DNA of 64,000 bases from Haloglycomyces albus DSM 45210 (GTDB taxonomy: Bacteria > Actinomycetota > Actinomycetes > Mycobacteriales > Micromonosporaceae). This document shows positions 3,335 to 44,222 of the stretch, piece after piece. The notes beneath the pieces are model-generated. The model was not told the DNA's origin. It saw only the letters and a program-made list of their open reading frames with translations, and ran no database searches. Every line of letters begins with the position of its first letter. Position 1 is the first letter of the stretch. Made by a program: the position numbers and the translations under genes. The DNA lies in the NCBI RefSeq assembly GCF_000527155.1, contig NZ_AZUQ01000001.1, positions 2,539,615 through 2,603,614 on the forward strand, read 5' to 3'.

Positions 3335-5197
3335 ATGGCAAAGGATTTCAATCGCCGAACGTTTCTGGGCGCCACTGGACTGACAGGATTGGCGGCAATC
3401 GATATACTGGGGATCGGTGACCCGGTCGATGCCACCGATGAGGCCCCGGAAGAGGTTGATTTCGTCGTAGTCGGCTCCGGCCCCGGCGGAACGCCGGTGG
3501 CGACTCGGCTGGCGCAGGAAGGCTTCACCGTCCTGGTCCTGGAGGCGGGCCCGCCCGCCGGGGATGACACTCTCTACAGCGTTCCGGCGCTGCACCATAA
3601 GATCGGTGCCACGGATACGGAGGTTCGGTGGGATTACTACGTTCGGCACTATACCGATCAGGAACTGAGCGAATCCAGCAGTCAATGGGTCGAAGGACGT
3701 GGAGTTCTATATCCGCGTGCGTCCACACTCGGTGGTTGCAGTGCGCATCATGCCATGATCACCATGTACCCGGAACCGTCGGATTGGACGCATATCCAGC
3801 GGGTCACGGGCGATGATTCCTGGCATCCGGAACGGATGTGGCAACACTGGGAGCGACTGCGGTCCTGGCAGCCCTTGGAACACTACGCCCTCAACGAGTT
3901 CGTTTCCATTGACCCACAAGTCGGAGCGCTCGTGGACGCCACTCTCAACGAAGTGGCCGAACTACCGGGCGGAGGGGTCACCGACGACTGGGAGGGTCTG
4001 AACGTCAAGGAGAATATTTCCAGTCGCAATCAAGGATTCTATCCACCCGAATTGGCCACCGATCACGGTCGACGAGTCTCCATGCGTGAACGACTGCGAT
4101 CGACGGCCCGGCAACATCCTGATCGTCTGTACATTGTGACCGACGCTCTGGCCGAAAGAATCCACCTCGACGGCGACTCCGAAACGACGCCGCGAGCGGT
4201 GGCCGTCGATTATCTGAAGGGGCGTCATCTATACGCCGCTTCGCCCGAGCACCGACCTATCGATGACGGGACCCGGACGTCCTCACGCCGGACGGTCAAG
4301 GTACACCGAGAGGTCATCGTCGCCGCGGGAGCGTATAACAGTCCGCAGCTTCTCATGTTGTCGGGAATCGGGCCGAAATCCCACCTCACCGGGCATGGGA
4401 TCGAGTGCCGTGTCGACCTCCCCGGCGTCGGTGCGAATCTCCAGGATCGCTACGAGGTTCCCGTCGTCACCGAACATCCCGACTTCATGCTGCTGTCGGC
4501 CTGTACTTTTGGCGAGGGCCTGTTCGACCCGTGCTTGAGCGAATGGGAGGCGATGCAGCGAACGCCTTTGGGTGAATTGACGTTCTATGGAACGAATGGA
4601 GCGATTGGGGCGGTCAAACGTCGCTACGGCGACGACGAACGCGCCCAGTTGTACGTCTTCGGGCTCCCAGTCGACTTCCGAGGCTATCGCCCCGGCTATG
4701 ACGACGGATACGTACACGACAAATTTACCTGGTTGATCCTGAAAGGGTTCGATTCCTCCCGGCAGGGAACCGTTCGGCTACGGTCGGCCGATCCGACCGA
4801 AACGCCCAGGATCAATCACCGCAAGTTCGACGACGGCGACCTGTCCGCACCTGATATCGACGCGCTCGTGGATTCCCTCCACATGGTGCGGCGGATCAAC
4901 GCGAACGCCGCGGTGGGAACCGAGGTGTGGCCGGGCGAATCGGTCGAGACCGAAGCCGAGATACGACGCTGGATTCGGCAGGAAGCCTGGGGGCATCATG
5001 CCTCCTGCACGAATCCCATCGGATCCGCTCCGGCGGAAGGCGCGGTTTTGGACGGTCGGTTCCGAGTCCACGGAGTCACAGGTCTGCGGGTCGTCGACGC
5101 GTCCAGCTTTCCTCGGATACCCGGCCTCTTCCTCTGGGCACCCACCGCGATCATTTCCGAAAAGGCAGGCGAGGACATCCTGACCGACCATTCCTGA
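3335..5197 (+). CDS. Tat-exported GMC-family FAD oxidoreductase
   Basis: A 620-residue flavoprotein of the glucose-methanol-choline oxidoreductase family. The N-terminus has a twin-arginine signal (NRRTFLG at residues 6-12, then a hydrophobic stretch), so the folded flavoenzyme is probably exported. The FAD motif GSGPGG is at 47-52, the GMC signature region contains STLGGCSAHHAMI, and the C-terminus has the conserved HHASCTNPIGSA segment with the catalytic-type histidines. The ATG at 3335 is chosen because it places the Tat signal at the N-terminus; a purine-rich GAAGGGAAGGG lies upstream. Substrate could be an alcohol or a sugar. It is distinct from the cytosolic BetA encoded at 54-56 kb. 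Confidence 0.85.
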   Translation: MAKDFNRRTFLGATGLTGLAAIDILGIGDPVDATDEAPEEVDFVVVGSGPGGTPVATRLAQEGFTVLVLEAGPPAGDDTLYSVPALHHKIGATDTEVRWDYYVRHYTDQELSESSSQWVEGRGVLYPRASTLGGCSAHHAMITMYPEPSDWTHIQRVTGDDSWHPERMWQHWERLRSWQPLEHYALNEFVSIDPQVGALVDATLNEVAELPGGGVTDDWEGLNVKENISSRNQGFYPPELATDHGRRVSMRERLRSTARQHPDRLYIVTDALAERIHLDGDSETTPRAVAVDYLKGRHLYAASPEHRPIDDGTRTSSRRTVKVHREVIVAAGAYNSPQLLMLSGIGPKSHLTGHGIECRVDLPGVGANLQDRYEVPVVTEHPDFMLLSACTFGEGLFDPCLSEWEAMQRTPLGELTFYGTNGAIGAVKRRYGDDERAQLYVFGLPVDFRGYRPGYDDGYVHDKFTWLILKGFDSSRQGTVRLRSADPTETPRINHRKFDDGDLSAPDIDALVDSLHMVRRINANAAVGTEVWPGESVETEAEIRRWIRQEAWGHHASCTNPIGSAPAEGAVLDGRFRVHGVTGLRVVDASSFPRIPGLFLWAPTAIISEKAGEDILTDHS

Positions 5198-5299: not shown

Positions 5300-6319
5300 A
5301 TGTATTCGGTGGAGCACGACGTCTTTCTGCTCGGTGGACGGCAGTCGCAACGGACGCCCGCAGAAACCCTGGGCGATCTCGTTGACTACAGTCGTGTGGC
5401 CGACCGGAGCGGGTTCGACACCGTTTGGTTCGCCGAGCATCACTTCATCGACTACGGATTGAATCCCGCCACGATGACCATGGCCTCGCACGTTCTGGCG
5501 GCCACCGACAACATCAACGTGGGAACGGCGGTCGTGATGCTCTCACAACATCACCCGGTCATGGTCGGAGAGCAGGTAGCACTCCTGGAGGCGCTCGCGC
5601 CGGGCCGTTTCCGTCTCGGCGTAGGTCGCGGCGGTCCCTGGGTCGACTTGGAGGTGTTCAATTCGAGTCTGGAGCGCTTCGAATCCGGGTTCCCCGAAGC
5701 GCTGGAGGTATTGCGGCGATGGTTGACCGCCGACGGCGACGTGTGGTTTGCCGGCGACCGTTTTTCCTTTCGTCCGGTGAGTCCCGTGCCCCCGCCGCCG
5801 TACCGCGAATCGGATCCGAATCTCATGTGGGTAGCGGCGACCGGTGAGCACACCGCCCGATTGGCGGGGCGAATGGGACTGCCGTTGTTGCTGGGGATGC
5901 ATACCGTCCCAGCCGACCACGAACACATGATCGACATATGGCGGCAGGAAGCGAGCGCCCACGGTCACGACGTCCACAGGGCCCAGCATGCCGCGGCCCT
6001 CCTCGCTCAGGTGGTGGACGGCCCCGGTGACCGTTCCCGACTGTGGCACCGGATGCGAACGTTGTTGGGATACACCGACCAGTATCAGTCGTTGCTGCGG
6101 CGTGGCAGCCCGAACCACGACGCGTACGTGGATTTTCTCCTCTCGCAACACGCCGTTGGCAGTGAACAGGAGGTTATGGAGAAGTTGACCGACGCCGCCG
6201 ACGCGTCGGGTGTGCGCCGGCAGCTCCTGTTCGTCGAGGGAATGGGTGATCCGAAAGCGGTGACGGACAACATCGCGACCCTGGGTAAGCTCATTTCCTT
6301 AGGCGGACCGCGATCGTGA
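5300..6319 (+). CDS. Luciferase-like (LLM class) flavin-dependent oxidoreductase
   Basis: A 339-residue TIM-barrel protein of the bacterial luciferase-like monooxygenase family, which uses FMN or F420. It has the family run FDTVWFAEHHF near residue 40, INVGTAVVML near 75, and RFRLGVGRGG near 105. The ATG at 5300 follows TTAGGAG. It is co-directional with the GMC gene 102 bp upstream, but a shared pathway is only a guess. The cofactor (FMN or F420) is undecided, though F420 use is common in actinomycetes. Confidence 0.85.
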   Translation: MYSVEHDVFLLGGRQSQRTPAETLGDLVDYSRVADRSGFDTVWFAEHHFIDYGLNPATMTMASHVLAATDNINVGTAVVMLSQHHPVMVGEQVALLEALAPGRFRLGVGRGGPWVDLEVFNSSLERFESGFPEALEVLRRWLTADGDVWFAGDRFSFRPVSPVPPPPYRESDPNLMWVAATGEHTARLAGRMGLPLLLGMHTVPADHEHMIDIWRQEASAHGHDVHRAQHAAALLAQVVDGPGDRSRLWHRMRTLLGYTDQYQSLLRRGSPNHDAYVDFLLSQHAVGSEQEVMEKLTDAADASGVRRQLLFVEGMGDPKAVTDNIATLGKLISLGGPRS

Positions 6320-6373
6320 TCGTGACCGAACTGATCTCGCGACACCATTGTGTGCAGTACCGTGAACGACGCT

Positions 6374-7303
6374 CTAGGTGTGCCGAAGGACCTTCTCCAG
6401 GTTGAGGACGCCGACTCGACTCTTCCACTGGACTCCGGCCTCGAATGCGTCGGCCAGAGCGGCTCGCATTGAGGAGTTGCGGGGGAGTTCGATCGGTGCG
6501 ACGGATTCGGGAAGAGCGTACACAAAGCGGTAGATATCGCCGGCGGCGTCCCTACCGGCGTTCTCCTCCGGACCGATGAGGTCGAAGAGTGATGCGAACG
6601 CGCGAATGTTCGATCGAGCCGGTAGCCAGTCGTTCAGCTGCGGATCCAGCAACCAGGAATCACAGGTCATCGTGATTTCTTCGGGAGCGGGGAACAGGTC
6701 CGGGAAGCTCTTGGGGAAGAATTCTCGGGCCAGGTGAACCGAGTCGGCGATCCGTTCCACACTCAGCGGTCCGCCCTCGCCCCGGATGTGCAGTCCCAAG
6801 TGTGGTTGGGTAGTGCTTCCCTCAATACAGAATTGCAAACGTCCCAGCTGATAGAGGCTGCCGCGAACGTGACAGGTGAACCAGAACGCGACATCGAGTC
6901 CGGCGCGTTGATAGAGGCGGCGATTGAGCCTGAGCTTTTCCCCGACGTCACTCATGACTCGGCGGGAATGGACCTGATTGACATTGTGCTGCCGGTGGTA
7001 GTTCACCATGTCGTCCAATGCCGCCAGAAGAGGATAGAGCCCCAACAGAGCGTCGGCCGGTGTACTCGACGGTAGTTTGGGCCACTGCCGCCACGCCGGT
7101 TCCCCCATGGTGGAAATAATGTCCTGGTAGAGGCGGTTGGCAAGAACAACCTGGTCGTCACTCAGGCGGTGGGCGGCGTCAGCGGCCTCCTGCGCATCCA
7201 ACACGTCCGCGTTGCACCATTCCAGCAACCTGTTGTACACCAGATCGGGGCTGGGGTGGTTGTACTGCTGACAGGCATCGGGCTCGGGGAGCTCGGTATT
7301 CAC
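6374..7303 (-). CDS. GNAT-like acyltransferase (NAT_N/GNAT_C type)
   Basis: A 309-residue protein resembling actinobacterial 'acyltransferase domain-containing' proteins with an N-terminal NAT_N-like helical domain and a C-terminal GNAT-like domain. The C-terminal half has the family patterns LGLHIRGEGGPLSVERI, then FFPKSFPDLFP, CDSWLLDPQL and LPARSNIRAF. The GTG at 7303 is chosen because CGGAGG lies 8 bases upstream and the longer frame has no site. The acyl donor and acceptor are unknown. It sits alone, convergent with the LLM gene. Confidence 0.7.
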   Translation of the reverse strand: MNTELPEPDACQQYNHPSPDLVYNRLLEWCNADVLDAQEAADAAHRLSDDQVVLANRLYQDIISTMGEPAWRQWPKLPSSTPADALLGLYPLLAALDDMVNYHRQHNVNQVHSRRVMSDVGEKLRLNRRLYQRAGLDVAFWFTCHVRGSLYQLGRLQFCIEGSTTQPHLGLHIRGEGGPLSVERIADSVHLAREFFPKSFPDLFPAPEEITMTCDSWLLDPQLNDWLPARSNIRAFASLFDLIGPEENAGRDAAGDIYRFVYALPESVAPIELPRNSSMRAALADAFEAGVQWKSRVGVLNLEKVLRHT

Positions 7304-13049: not shown

Positions 13050-13394
13050 CGCAGCGCGTACATACGGCGGTAGGGCCGTTTGTACCTCTGCAGAACGCTC
13101 GACCACCACGCACGCCCCTGACGAAACCGGCGAGCTTCGAGCGAAGCGCAGAAGCGGTAGAGCTGCCTGTGATTCCTAAAGAGCGCTACCGTCGTTCCAT
13201 CCCCAGGGACGAGCCAACTGGCGAGCCGCTAACGACGTGCCGCAGGCGCGTGTGCAGCGGCGGTAGAGCTGGAGAAGAGCTCAGGTTGTTCCAGGTGCTT
13301 CAGATTTGCGCGAGGAGGACTCGTAGCGGCCTTGTGGCCGCAAGAGGCCCCCGCAGCGTAAATATGGAGTGCCTGGAACAACCTGAGCGGTCAC
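13050..13394 (-). repeat. Post-gene structured repeat, copy A
   Basis: About 345 bp homologous to 43873-44222 in inverted orientation. Read on the minus strand it starts GTGACCGC three bases after the stop of the upstream coiled-coil gene. It runs through a 110-bp hairpin (13388 to 13279) and then has three CTCTACCG-like blocks at 13268-13261, 13162-13155 and 13075-13068. The first block is followed by a GCCGCT/AGCGGC hairpin (13261 to 13225). Block spacing (106 and 87 bp) nearly equals that of copy B (104 and 86 bp). It encodes no recognisable protein. Confidence 0.8.
13279..13388. repeat. 110-bp palindromic hairpin of copy A
   Basis: The arms GCTCAGGTTGTTCCAGG (13279-13295) and its perfect complement (13372-13388) are 17 bp. 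Pairing continues inward imperfectly (ATTTGCGC against GCGTAAAT), then GGAGGACTC (13314-13322) against GAGGCCCCC (13344-13352), and ends in a central hairpin GCGGCC-TTGT-GGCCGC (13326-13341). It sits directly behind a gene and may end or stabilise its transcript. Confidence 0.85.
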
Positions 13395-13395
13395 C

Positions 13396-14403
13396 TTACC
13401 TCCAGGAGGTATGGACGTGGTTGGTGTGATCGGTGTTCGGGTCGCCGTTGGCGAGGTTGTAGTTGGTCCACCCAGTGGTGGGGGACCAGAACATTTTGTA
13501 CCAGATGACGTATTTGATGCCGAGGCGATCGGCGTTTTCCACGAACCAGGCGGCGAGGTTGTCACCGTACTGTTTGGCGGTGCCCGTGGCGACGCCTTTG
13601 AAGCCGCCTGGAGTCACGGAGTAGTCGCAGGCCTTTCCTTGGGGGTGGTCACCCCACGAGCCGTTGCGGAAACAGGCGGTGTAGCGGGTGAACCCCGCCA
13701 ATTGGGACTGGACCACGCCGTGCCTGGTGCGTGGGGAGATGCAGCCGTTGGTGGTGGGATCTGATTCGGAGCAGGATTCGTAGGGGAGCGAACCGTTGGG
13801 GTTCCGGGGTACGGCTTCGGGGGTGGGGAAGTTACCCGGCTCGGGGCCTACGGCGGAGTCTCCTCCGGCTCCTGCCATGGAGAGGGCGGCGGACTCTCGG
13901 GCCTCATCGAGTTCCTTGGTGAGCCGTTCCTGTTCGGCGATGTTTTCGTCCAGGTCGTCTTGGAGCGTGTCGATCTCCTGGATCCGTTTGATGAGTGTGT
14001 CGACACGCTCGGCTCGCGATTCGCCTAGGAAGTCGAGCATGGTCATCGCTTCCAGCATGTCGCGATTGTCGTCCGAGGCCAACATCGTCGTCAGGGAGTA
14101 CATGTCCGATTGCTGCAAGGCGATTCCAGCGAAATCGGCCAGCTCCTTTTTCAGCTCCTTTTGACGCTCTTCGGCGTCTTCCAATTCCGTTTCCAGGTCT
14201 TTTTCTTTTTGCTGGAGCTCCTCGAGCTTATCCATCGCTTCCAGATAGTCCGTAATCGCACTCGATAGTTCTTCCGATACGGAGTGTTCTTCCAGTTCGT
14301 CATCTTGGGCCAGCGATTGGGACGGCGGCAATAGAAACAAGACCAACAATAGGATTCCGGAAGTGAACACGGGTTTTCGGCTTCGGGTGCTCAAGCGAGT
14401 CAC
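13396..14403 (-). CDS. Secreted coiled-coil LAS-type peptidase-like protein
   Basis: A 335-residue secreted protein. A signal peptide occupies about residues 8-33 (VFTSGILLLVLFLLPPSQS), two coiled-coil stretches follow (about 45-95 and 115-180), then a linker and a C-terminal domain from about 230. That domain has H-P-Q-G-K-A-C-D-Y and a terminal D-H-T-N-H-V-H, the His/Asp and HxH pattern of zinc LAS-type enzymes. It resembles actinobacterial ARB_07466-like C-terminal proteins. Coiled coil plus hydrolase is the plan of PcsB/RipC-type wall hydrolases activated at division, and the gene is divergent from murE. GTG at 14403 is chosen for an AAAGGA upstream; the hydrolase role is inferred. Confidence 0.75.
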   Translation of the reverse strand: MTRLSTRSRKPVFTSGILLLVLFLLPPSQSLAQDDELEEHSVSEELSSAITDYLEAMDKLEELQQKEKDLETELEDAEERQKELKKELADFAGIALQQSDMYSLTTMLASDDNRDMLEAMTMLDFLGESRAERVDTLIKRIQEIDTLQDDLDENIAEQERLTKELDEARESAALSMAGAGGDSAVGPEPGNFPTPEAVPRNPNGSLPYESCSESDPTTNGCISPRTRHGVVQSQLAGFTRYTACFRNGSWGDHPQGKACDYSVTPGGFKGVATGTAKQYGDNLAAWFVENADRLGIKYVIWYKMFWSPTTGWTNYNLANGDPNTDHTNHVHTSWR

Positions 14404-14791
14404 GGCTGGTGGATCCTTTGAATAGACATGAGGATGAATCGGCTTGGGTACTAAGACTAGAGCGTGATCGAATTCCTTTCGCATAGGGGGTGCCAATCGC
14501 GGTTCTCGAGCGACTCTTTCGAGTAGGTGTCAGATTAATATTCTGTGCGCCAGAAGTAAAGACCCTCGTCAACAGGGGCGAATATTGCGATCGACAATAA
14601 CGGAACGAATCTTTTCGTTCACATAAAGAATGGAGAAAGGGGAGAGGCGGCAAGAATTCGATTGGAATCAAATTAATCTCGGGAAGGGGATTCTTTTGGG
14701 CCACTATCGTGTCGATCGCAGCCGTACAAAAAGCACCACGGTGTATGGTCAGGCGGTGTCATCGTTTTCGCAATCTCGGCAACGACCCGAA
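14404..14791. promoter_or_regulatory. Divergent promoter region, coiled-coil hydrolase / murE
   Basis: A 388-bp, relatively AT-rich gap between divergent genes, expected to carry the mur operon promoter. A hairpin GAACGAA-TCTT-TTCGTTC lies at 14603-14620. The open frame that extends upstream of murE (from 14630) is not needed for the protein and is probably leader. Confidence 0.5.
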
Positions 14792-43500: not shown

Positions 43501-43869
43501 ATGGCAACCGTTGAATTGACCAAAGAGAACTTTGAAGAGATCATCACGACCAAGGACATGGTGTTGGTTGACTGGTGGGCCGAATGGTGTGGTCCGTGCA
43601 AACAGTTCGCACCGGTTTATGAGAAATCGAGTGAGGACCACGAGGATATTGTCTTCGGGAAAATCGACACCGAAGCGCAGCAGGAGCTCGCCTCCGCCGC
43701 CGACATTCAGTCCATCCCGACCTTGATGGCGTTCCGGGAAGGCATCCTGCTGTATTCCAACCCGGGCGCGATTCCCTCTGAAGCTTTGGAAGATCTGATT
43801 GGGCAGATGAAGGCACTCGACATGGACGACGTTCGCAAGCAGATTGCCGACCAAGAAGAAGAGGAGTAG
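43501..43869 (+). CDS. trxA: Thioredoxin
   Basis: A 122-residue thioredoxin with the redox motif WCGPC (Cys 30 and Cys 33) in DWWAEWCGPCKQFAP, and the cis-proline in QSIPTLMAF. It is slightly longer than typical TrxA because of an acidic C-terminal tail. No thioredoxin reductase is adjacent. ATG at 43501 after AAAGTGAG. Structured repeat B begins 4 bases after the stop. Confidence 0.93.
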   Translation: MATVELTKENFEEIITTKDMVLVDWWAEWCGPCKQFAPVYEKSSEDHEDIVFGKIDTEAQQELASAADIQSIPTLMAFREGILLYSNPGAIPSEALEDLIGQMKALDMDDVRKQIADQEEEE

Positions 43870-43872
43870 GAA

Positions 43873-44222
43873 GTGACCGCTCAGGTTGCCCCAGGTACTC
43901 CATATTTGCGCTGTGGGGGATTCTCACGACCTGAAGGTCGCGACGAATCCTCCTCGCGCAAATCTGCAGTACCTGGAACAACCTGAGCTCCTCTCCAGCT
44001 CTACCGCCGCTGCGCACGCGCTGCGCGCGCTGCTAGCGGCTCGCCAGTTGGCATATCTGTGGGAAATGTGCGGTGGTTGAGCTCGTTGAACGGCAGAGGC
44101 GCCTCTACCGCTTCTTCGCTTCGGTCGAAACTCGCCACTTGCCATGTGGTTTGTGTAGTAGTCTTTTTCTTCCTGAACCTTCAGGCAGCTCTACTGCCGC
44201 ATCACGGTAATGCGCTCGCGGC
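43873..44222 (+). repeat. Post-gene structured repeat, copy B
   Basis: About 350 bp homologous to copy A (13394 down to 13050). It starts GTGACCGC 4 bases after the trxA stop. It then has a 110-bp hairpin (43879-43988) and three blocks, CTCTACCG at 43999-44006 and 44103-44110, and CTCTACTG at 44189-44196. Block 1 continues into a GCCGCT/AGCGGC hairpin (44006-44040), and block 3 into a GCCGC/GCGGC hairpin ending at 44222. Hairpin start to block 1 is exactly 120 bases in both copies. Confidence 0.8.
43879..43988. repeat. 110-bp palindromic hairpin of copy B
   Basis: The outer arms are 43879-43895 and 43972-43988, with two mismatches caused by TT to CC in the gene-proximal arm. Inner pairing includes ATTTGCGC with GCGCAAAT, GGGGGATTC (43915-43923) with GAATCCTCC (43945-43953), and a central hairpin CGACC-TGAA-GGTCG (43927-43940). 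The last two helices differ from copy A by paired changes. Confidence 0.85.

Follow-up and report, generated by a model that had tools for sequence, protein, structure and literature searches.

Palindromic intergenic repeats are common, and it is seldom clear whether pairing in DNA, single-stranded DNA (ssDNA) or RNA keeps the palindrome, or how copies reach stop codons. The enterobacterial repeat ERIC (127 bp) is an intergenic, imperfect palindrome of a little over 100 bp, and the attC sites of integrons, whose core is GTTRRRY, are recognized by their structure, with one strand folding better than the other. REPs, with a palindrome of 20–40 bp (PMC3733652), are dispersed mostly between co-directional or convergent genes, near the upstream 3′ end (PMC3733652, PMC12306157). 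In the two species diagrammed in one report, those between convergent genes lie mostly less than 20 bp from 3′ ends and those between co-directional genes near the 3′ end of the upstream gene; a further passage of the same report allows that some hosts may have lost their REPtrons (PMC3733652). A passage of a second report cites other work in which E. coli REPs at most 15 nt from a stop codon are reported to stall ribosomes, although by the count of the second report itself only 446 of 4,072 E. coli REPs lie so near (PMC12306157). BOX elements are composite, with end modules and a variable number of tandem middle modules, and in Streptococcus suis the boxB modules are common to two sets of end modules; the passage describing them also cites ERIC as an orientation-dependent trigger of transcript cleavage (PMC3049150).

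The element described here occurs twice in the window, i.e., the whole stretch of 64,000 nucleotides that was analysed (Haloglycomyces albus DSM 45210, contig NZ_AZUQ01000001.1, positions 2,539,615 to 2,603,614). It runs from a GT-rich left end, often eroded, through the edge GTGACCGCT, a hairpin of ~110 nt and the edge AGCTCYTYTCCAGCTCTACCGC into tandem units of ~85–105 bp, of which mostly 1–3 are detectable and which decay away from the hairpin. Two hairpins, H1 and H2, have both edges in common and no evident sequence likeness to each other. We consider it probable that these are about 54 dispersed composite palindromic repeats of the REP/ERIC/BOX kind, restricted to one lineage, and their dispersal probably occurred by transposition or recombination.

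The likeness to REPs and BIMEs lies in dispersed palindromes that sit mostly between co-directional or convergent genes, near the upstream 3′ end. Membership of the GTAG-tagged, RAYT-mobilized REPs was rejected on size, GTAG and RAYT alike: the hairpin has ~110 nt, its edges (GTGACCGCT and AGCTCYTYTCC) show no GTAG, and the H. albus genome gave no match to Y1_Tnp (RAYT-type). Tandem decaying units and two unrelated hairpins with common edges are further differences from REPs; CTAC is found beside a small hairpin inside the units. Like ERIC, the element is a little over 100 bp, intergenic and an imperfect palindrome, and it has the MITE/ERIC trait of being short with a highly base-paired fold; it differs from ERIC in that no inverted right end was found and tandem units are attached, a distinction drawn without sequence comparison. 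BOX is likewise composite, and the S. suis sets that share boxB modules resemble H1 and H2 sharing units (PMC3049150). However, both ends of BOX are defined modules (boxA and boxC), whereas here the hairpin end alone is fixed, the units decay into unique sequence and no second end module was found beyond them. Integron attC or other ssDNA-folded sites, with their one-strand folding, would look like this element, but no cassette genes lie between the units, which by eye lack the GTTRRRY core. Two features are unusual relative to the known kind: one frame accepts exchangeable hairpin bodies, and pairing is specific to the strand opposite to the preceding gene. Two unrelated hairpins in one frame with an equal wobble pattern form an internal control that sets strand-specific folding against simple DNA palindromy, and about 54 copies in one genome make the strand-folding question testable.

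The two window copies and their family

A first-pass annotation had reported two homologous gene-free regions in the window, each beginning just past a stop codon, and both are present where it placed them. Copy 1 (minus strand) starts at 13394, one base after the TAA (13396–13398) of the open reading frame 13396–14496, and copy 2 (plus strand) starts at 43873, three bases after the TAG that ends trxA (43501–43869), whose product is a thioredoxin in Pfam and NCBIfam profile searches. The gene before copy 1 had been labeled a hydrolase; this label was not confirmed, as the product matched no Pfam family at 1e-4 and had only weak NCBIfam matches far below cut-off, several of which are coiled-coil proteins. 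When aligned, both copies consist of a stop codon, 1–3 bases, GTGACC, a 110-bp hairpin, GAGCTCYTCTCC and units starting with AGCTCTACCGC, as follows:

13389–13394, minus strand: left edge GTGACC of copy 1, one base after TAA 13396–13398; the edge GTGACCGCT is common to H1 and H2, with single-base variants
13279–13388, minus strand: H1 hairpin of copy 1, 110 bp, from the fold and the reverse-strand structure
13165–13270, minus strand: unit 1 of copy 1, starting with AGCTCTACCGC; unit HMM 86 bits including the next start motif
13067–13164, minus strand: unit 2 of copy 1 with the motif that opens a third, degenerate unit; unit HMM 65 bits
43873–43878, plus strand: left edge GTGACC of copy 2, three bases after the trxA stop codon 43867–43869
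43879–43988, plus strand: H1 hairpin of copy 2, 110 bp, from the fold and the reverse-strand structure
43997–44100, plus strand: unit 1 of copy 2; unit HMM 73 bits including the next start motif
44101–44197, plus strand: unit 2 of copy 2 (weaker) with the start of a decayed third; unit HMM 48 bits, the third 3.4 bits

The equal length of the hairpins and the spacing of the CTCTACCG blocks (106/87 in copy 1 and 104/86 in copy 2) agree with the earlier description, as do the exchange of the loop helix (GCGGCC/GGCCGC for CGACC/GGTCG) and that of the next helix (CTC/GAG for TTC/GAA). That the two form an inverted pair is incidental, since the window holds 2 of about 54 hairpins that occur on both strands genome-wide. 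The 331 bases of copy 1 fold with a z-score of -5.4 against shuffled sequence, which together with the 91 BLAST pieces described below puts the observation far beyond chance. No Rfam model matched the window at gathering scores.

The genome of the window is a single contig of 3,535,419 bases (3.54 Mb). When searched with the 331-base copy 1, it returned 91 BLAST pieces, many of them self-matches of the palindrome, and an HMM made from the BLAST hits found 40 full hairpins and one half in the fetched stretches. A pattern spanning the junction of hairpin and unit occurred at 50 places with at most 3 mismatches, against 0 for a control pattern; junction and left-edge searches (for the left edge, among the matches listed) yielded one further H1 (985099) and eleven H2 copies, and a query with the second hairpin added a twelfth, 2083725. 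The many copies anticipated by the annotation were thus found in its own genome, with about 54 hairpins (42 H1, one of them a half, and 12 H2), a total that may lack degenerate copies. Context statistics are based on the 53 entries known before the twelfth H2 was found, with the half copy and its nested copy counted separately. One half of the chromosome has 19 minus-strand and 14 plus-strand entries, the other 9 and 11, respectively; with the origin assumed near base 1, no replication-strand bias was seen.

A spread through related actinomycetes was not supported. The H1 covariance model matched the window's own genome alone (1/354 genomes of the family, 1/397 of the order) in overlapping sets searched with strict filters, under which copies with another hairpin body would escape. 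The absence of further copies from related genomes, named by the annotation as counting against its reading, is therefore what was found for the H1 model in 353 other genomes of the family and 396 of the order. Similarly, a DNA search of relatives matched 1/61 genomes, the own one, in a set without a second genome of the genus, and no match was found in plasmids, phages or viral contigs (the viral scan used one exact pattern). A scan of genome contigs with trxA returned 80 loci from other genera, which entered none of the results given here. In the literature, a limited search by title and start of abstract, which is no proof of absence in print, gave no fitting actinobacterial counterpart. 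The best reading is that the family is lineage-restricted.

Hairpins and tandem units

H2 starts with CACAGCACGTTGCCTAGCGG, and its left edge GTGACCGCT(C)AG and right edge CTGAGCTCCTCTCCAGCTCTACCGC are as in H1, with small variants. The outer stem of H1 has two sub-types, A with CAGCTTGCCCCAGG and B with GGGGGCTGCTGAGG and variants, and the opposite arm changes along; the outlier is 1777338, an entry that follows a tRNA gene. The interior of the hairpin is inverted in 3407964 (H1) and 3212377 (H2), two H2 copies have hairpins shortened to about 75–80 nt, and identical hairpins occur at distant loci.

Unit matches lie on the same strand as the hairpin, 60–700 nt downstream of it, in 52/52 cases. 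With weak hits counted, at least one unit HMM hit was obtained in 50 of the 52 copies examined, with 1 to 5 hits per array. The median score falls outward by rank from 72.5 bits (n = 50) to 46.8 (n = 39) and 19.2 (n = 21), with a model that favors first units, having been trained on 30 first, 11 second and 2 later units. Since the units decay and the last match ends at a widely varying place within the unit, the right end of the element appears not to be fixed, whereas the left end is. First units with a TTC loop accompany 6/9 B hairpins and 5/30 typed A hairpins (Fisher p 0.008; two A copies not typed), and therefore hairpin and first unit tend to travel together.

An RNAalifold consensus of a mixed unit alignment, sub-types together, was poor on both strands. 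Unit arrays that had seemed to stand alone are in fact preceded by the different hairpin, H2, and the category of 'solo' arrays was rejected. The units carry GGTAGAGC, as in a tRNA D-arm; an origin from tRNA was rejected, as ARAGORN detected no tRNA at 7/8 scanned loci, and the only two tRNA genes that it reported at the remaining locus (L168) lie outside the element.

Strand-specific pairing

From the paired changes between the two window copies, the annotation had proposed that pairing is preserved, and the H1 copies bear this out: on the reverse strand, antisense to the preceding gene, 15 of 42 pairs are changed on both sides, a number reached by 0/500 shuffles. In the reverse-strand H1 alignment, which leaves out the inverted 3407964, 985099 and the half copy, 99.1% of the cells of these 42 pairs are paired; the structures are RNAalifold consensus structures of the same alignments, which favors such percentages. 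Wobble intermediates are present on this strand (GC 19/GU 17; UG 29/CG 8/UA 2; GU 28/GC 9/AU 2), and the view that there are none and that conversion took place at the DNA level only was rejected once they were seen. On the forward strand, 14/37 pairs are changed on both sides and one-sided changes that keep pairing are nearly absent. The number of pair types was reached by 26/500 shuffles on the reverse strand, a weak signal, and by 469/500 on the forward strand, no signal at all. One-sided minority variants, scored on the pairs of the reverse structure, give a reverse-strand G.U in 13 cases, A.C in 4 and another mismatch in 13.

Folding energies differ in the same direction. The H1 hairpins have a mean of -79.2 kcal/mol on the reverse and -61.5 kcal/mol on the forward strand, and the reverse fold is better in 39/40, the exception being the inverted copy 3407964, which is nearly equal on both strands; the structure conservation index (SCI) is 0.95 vs 0.74 for the 40 copies and 0.92 vs 0.75 without the inverted copy. 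For H2, of which 11/12 copies were folded, the means are -79.3 and -58.5 kcal/mol, the reverse fold is better in 10/11 (exception, the inverted copy 3212377) and the SCI is 0.77 vs 0.71. When the pairing score gives G.U and A.C equal weight, A.C outnumbers G.U on the forward strand in 41/41 H1 and 10/11 H2 copies, with the half copy left out and the two short H2 copies cut. The hairpins pair clearly better on the antisense strand, where the A.C mismatches of the forward strand become G.U pairs. As the copies are related, per-copy counts are not independent, and the independent units are the two unrelated hairpins plus the sub-types. The units go weakly the opposite way, with a slightly better forward fold in 33/43.

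Strand-specific pairing of this kind suggests that what is selected is a single-stranded molecule, RNA or ssDNA, folded from the antisense strand. Strand-biased deamination may also cause the asymmetry but would account for it less completely. The hairpins had been offered as a 3′ structured RNA of the preceding gene, and the better pairing on the opposite strand (39/40 H1, 10/11 H2) goes against this and disfavors an element of that gene's 3′-UTR.

A rather different function for the same strand would be that the copies are genes for hairpin RNAs, in which the hairpin-proximal unit is, or contains, a promoter and an RNA of ~110 nt ends antisense to the 3′ end of the neighboring gene. The strand-specific pairing in two unrelated hairpins and the wobble intermediates on the antisense strand agree with such genes, as does CGGTAGAGCT, which is conserved a short way 5′ of the hairpin when the antisense strand is read. 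We nevertheless regard them as unlikely, given that no conserved -35 is seen by eye, loop types of differing length occupy that place, no U-run lies past the hairpin on the antisense strand, the units fold slightly better forward, and folding of ssDNA would yield the same asymmetry.

Position, entry and mobility

According to a home-made, coding-score gene finder, 39 of the 53 entries follow a co-oriented gene, and in 29 of these 39 the stop codon lies at most 10 nt from the first T of the element, whose own TGA is the stop codon of the gene in 13/53 entries, all among the 29. The preference for stop codons suggested by the two window copies is thereby borne out: 11.6% of 3′-side intergenic bases lie that close to a stop codon in the 35 element-free window gaps that have a 3′ side (binomial p ~1e-19). 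Selection against insertion elsewhere may contribute to the excess. The entries comprise 17 convergent, 33 co-directional and 3 divergent contexts, against 9, 34 and 10 window gaps, respectively. Some entries away from stop codons follow apparent terminators, i.e., a hairpin with a T-run (2838446 and 1344714).

The proximity to stop codons (29/39 within 10 nt) could indicate a host element at the 3′ end of the preceding gene on the forward strand, such as a terminator, a 3′-end protector or a translation brake. Even the forward RNA has a folding energy of about -61 kcal/mol, and E. coli REPs at such distances are among those reported to stall ribosomes (passage in PMC12306157). Forward pairing is, however, the worse of both strands, and 14/53 entries have no co-oriented preceding gene. 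Moreover, no T-run that would support a terminator function follows the hairpin. The facing copies 2083725 (H2, plus) and 2084502 (H1, minus) lie between rplR and rpsE (2083725–2084703, locus L175), genes that are normally adjacent in the spc ribosomal operon, and a strong terminator would be harmful there unless a promoter follows. Such a host element seems quite unlikely.

A functionless DNA palindrome, with arms and copies homogenized through hairpin-initiated gene conversion or template switching that leaves units to decay with distance, would account for whole helix arms swapped as blocks, inverted interiors in 3407964 and 3212377, unit decay and identical hairpins at distant loci. It is very unlikely, since a strand-neutral process would not be expected to give both unrelated hairpins a consistent bias of A.C over G.U, or to yield, on one strand, variants in which G.U has become G-C or A-U. 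Strand-biased deamination could mimic part of this pattern.

How copies arrive may be read from nine loci in which a truncated older left part lies directly upstream of an intact copy in the same orientation. At 1098040, an older H1 hairpin breaks off at its loop apex and is followed by TTTGGTGGG and then the new copy; the relics at the other loci measure 33, 28 or about 9–14 nt, the last in most of them and too short to type. The right half of the older hairpin was absent on the same strand within 3 kb downstream at 9/9 loci, a palindromic self-match of a facing intact copy being set aside, and for this reason simple insertion does not explain the layered loci. We infer that replacement, or one-ended insertion closed by recombination between units, would do so. 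Because of the relics, the string TTTGGTTGGTGGG is taken as part of the left end, often eroded or merged into the last codons of the gene. The left end (TTTGGTTGGTGGGTGACC) together with the edge is recognizable (at most 4 mismatches of 22) in only 21/53 entries. At 1488129–1488194 (L182), three tandem 22-bp repeats TGACCGCTCTTTGGTGGGTGGG, each corresponding to left edge plus left end, are followed directly by an intact copy. A stretch on the downstream side of the nested copy 1098040 (L164, about 4100–5000) resembles, by eye, a broken IS transposase.

As dispersed repeats of the REP/ERIC/BOX kind, the elements would be mobile or recently mobile and non-autonomous, joining DNA by the left end with no fixed right end. 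Copies would be tolerated where neither a gene is cut nor a promoter parted from its gene, above all behind stop codons, and the hairpin would be kept because the reverse strand needs to fold in single-stranded form, either as RNA or as ssDNA while the element moves. Once in place, the element may act like REP, ERIC or BOX, giving the message a strong terminal hairpin and, in 13/53 entries, the gene its stop codon. A more specific proposal, which we consider doubtful, is that the selected molecule in these multi-copy elements is the antisense-strand hairpin of ~110 nt, either an RNA or a folded ssDNA intermediate of transposition; that the hairpin body is an exchangeable cartridge, with two unrelated sequences in one slot between shared edges; and that each new copy enters at a stop codon, through its hairpin-side end alone, and pushes older copies outward.

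The annotation had listed a non-autonomous mobile element among its possibilities. As a kind it is the most likely one, and neither PF01797 nor PF00078 links a mover to it: Y1_Tnp (RAYT, PF01797) matched 0/1 own and 5/14 control genomes, and RVT_1 (PF00078) 0/1 and 3/14, so that SINE-like retroposition by a reverse transcriptase of the genome itself was rejected. The profile PF04986 (IS91/Helitron-type rolling circle) matched none of the control genomes and is uninformative. A MITE with inverted ends was rejected for lack of a right-hand inverted end, as the best right-side match of the inverted left end was at shuffled level in 41 copies, a set that excluded the half copy and the members of facing pairs.

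With the exception of the nested half copy 1097973, all neighboring pairs less than 3 kb apart (6/6) face each other, with the hairpins outermost:

183275 and 186183
1488195 and 1488902
2083725 and 2084502
2093048 and 2095471
2178951 and 2180167
3407964 and 3410209

The pairs beginning at 183275, 2093048 and 3407964 have one or two predicted genes between them and in this resemble small composite units. At locus L167, the genes 4062–4868 and 5567–6646 encode paralogous secreted proteins, which resemble AA10 lytic polysaccharide monooxygenases, one inside and one outside the pair 3407964/3410209.
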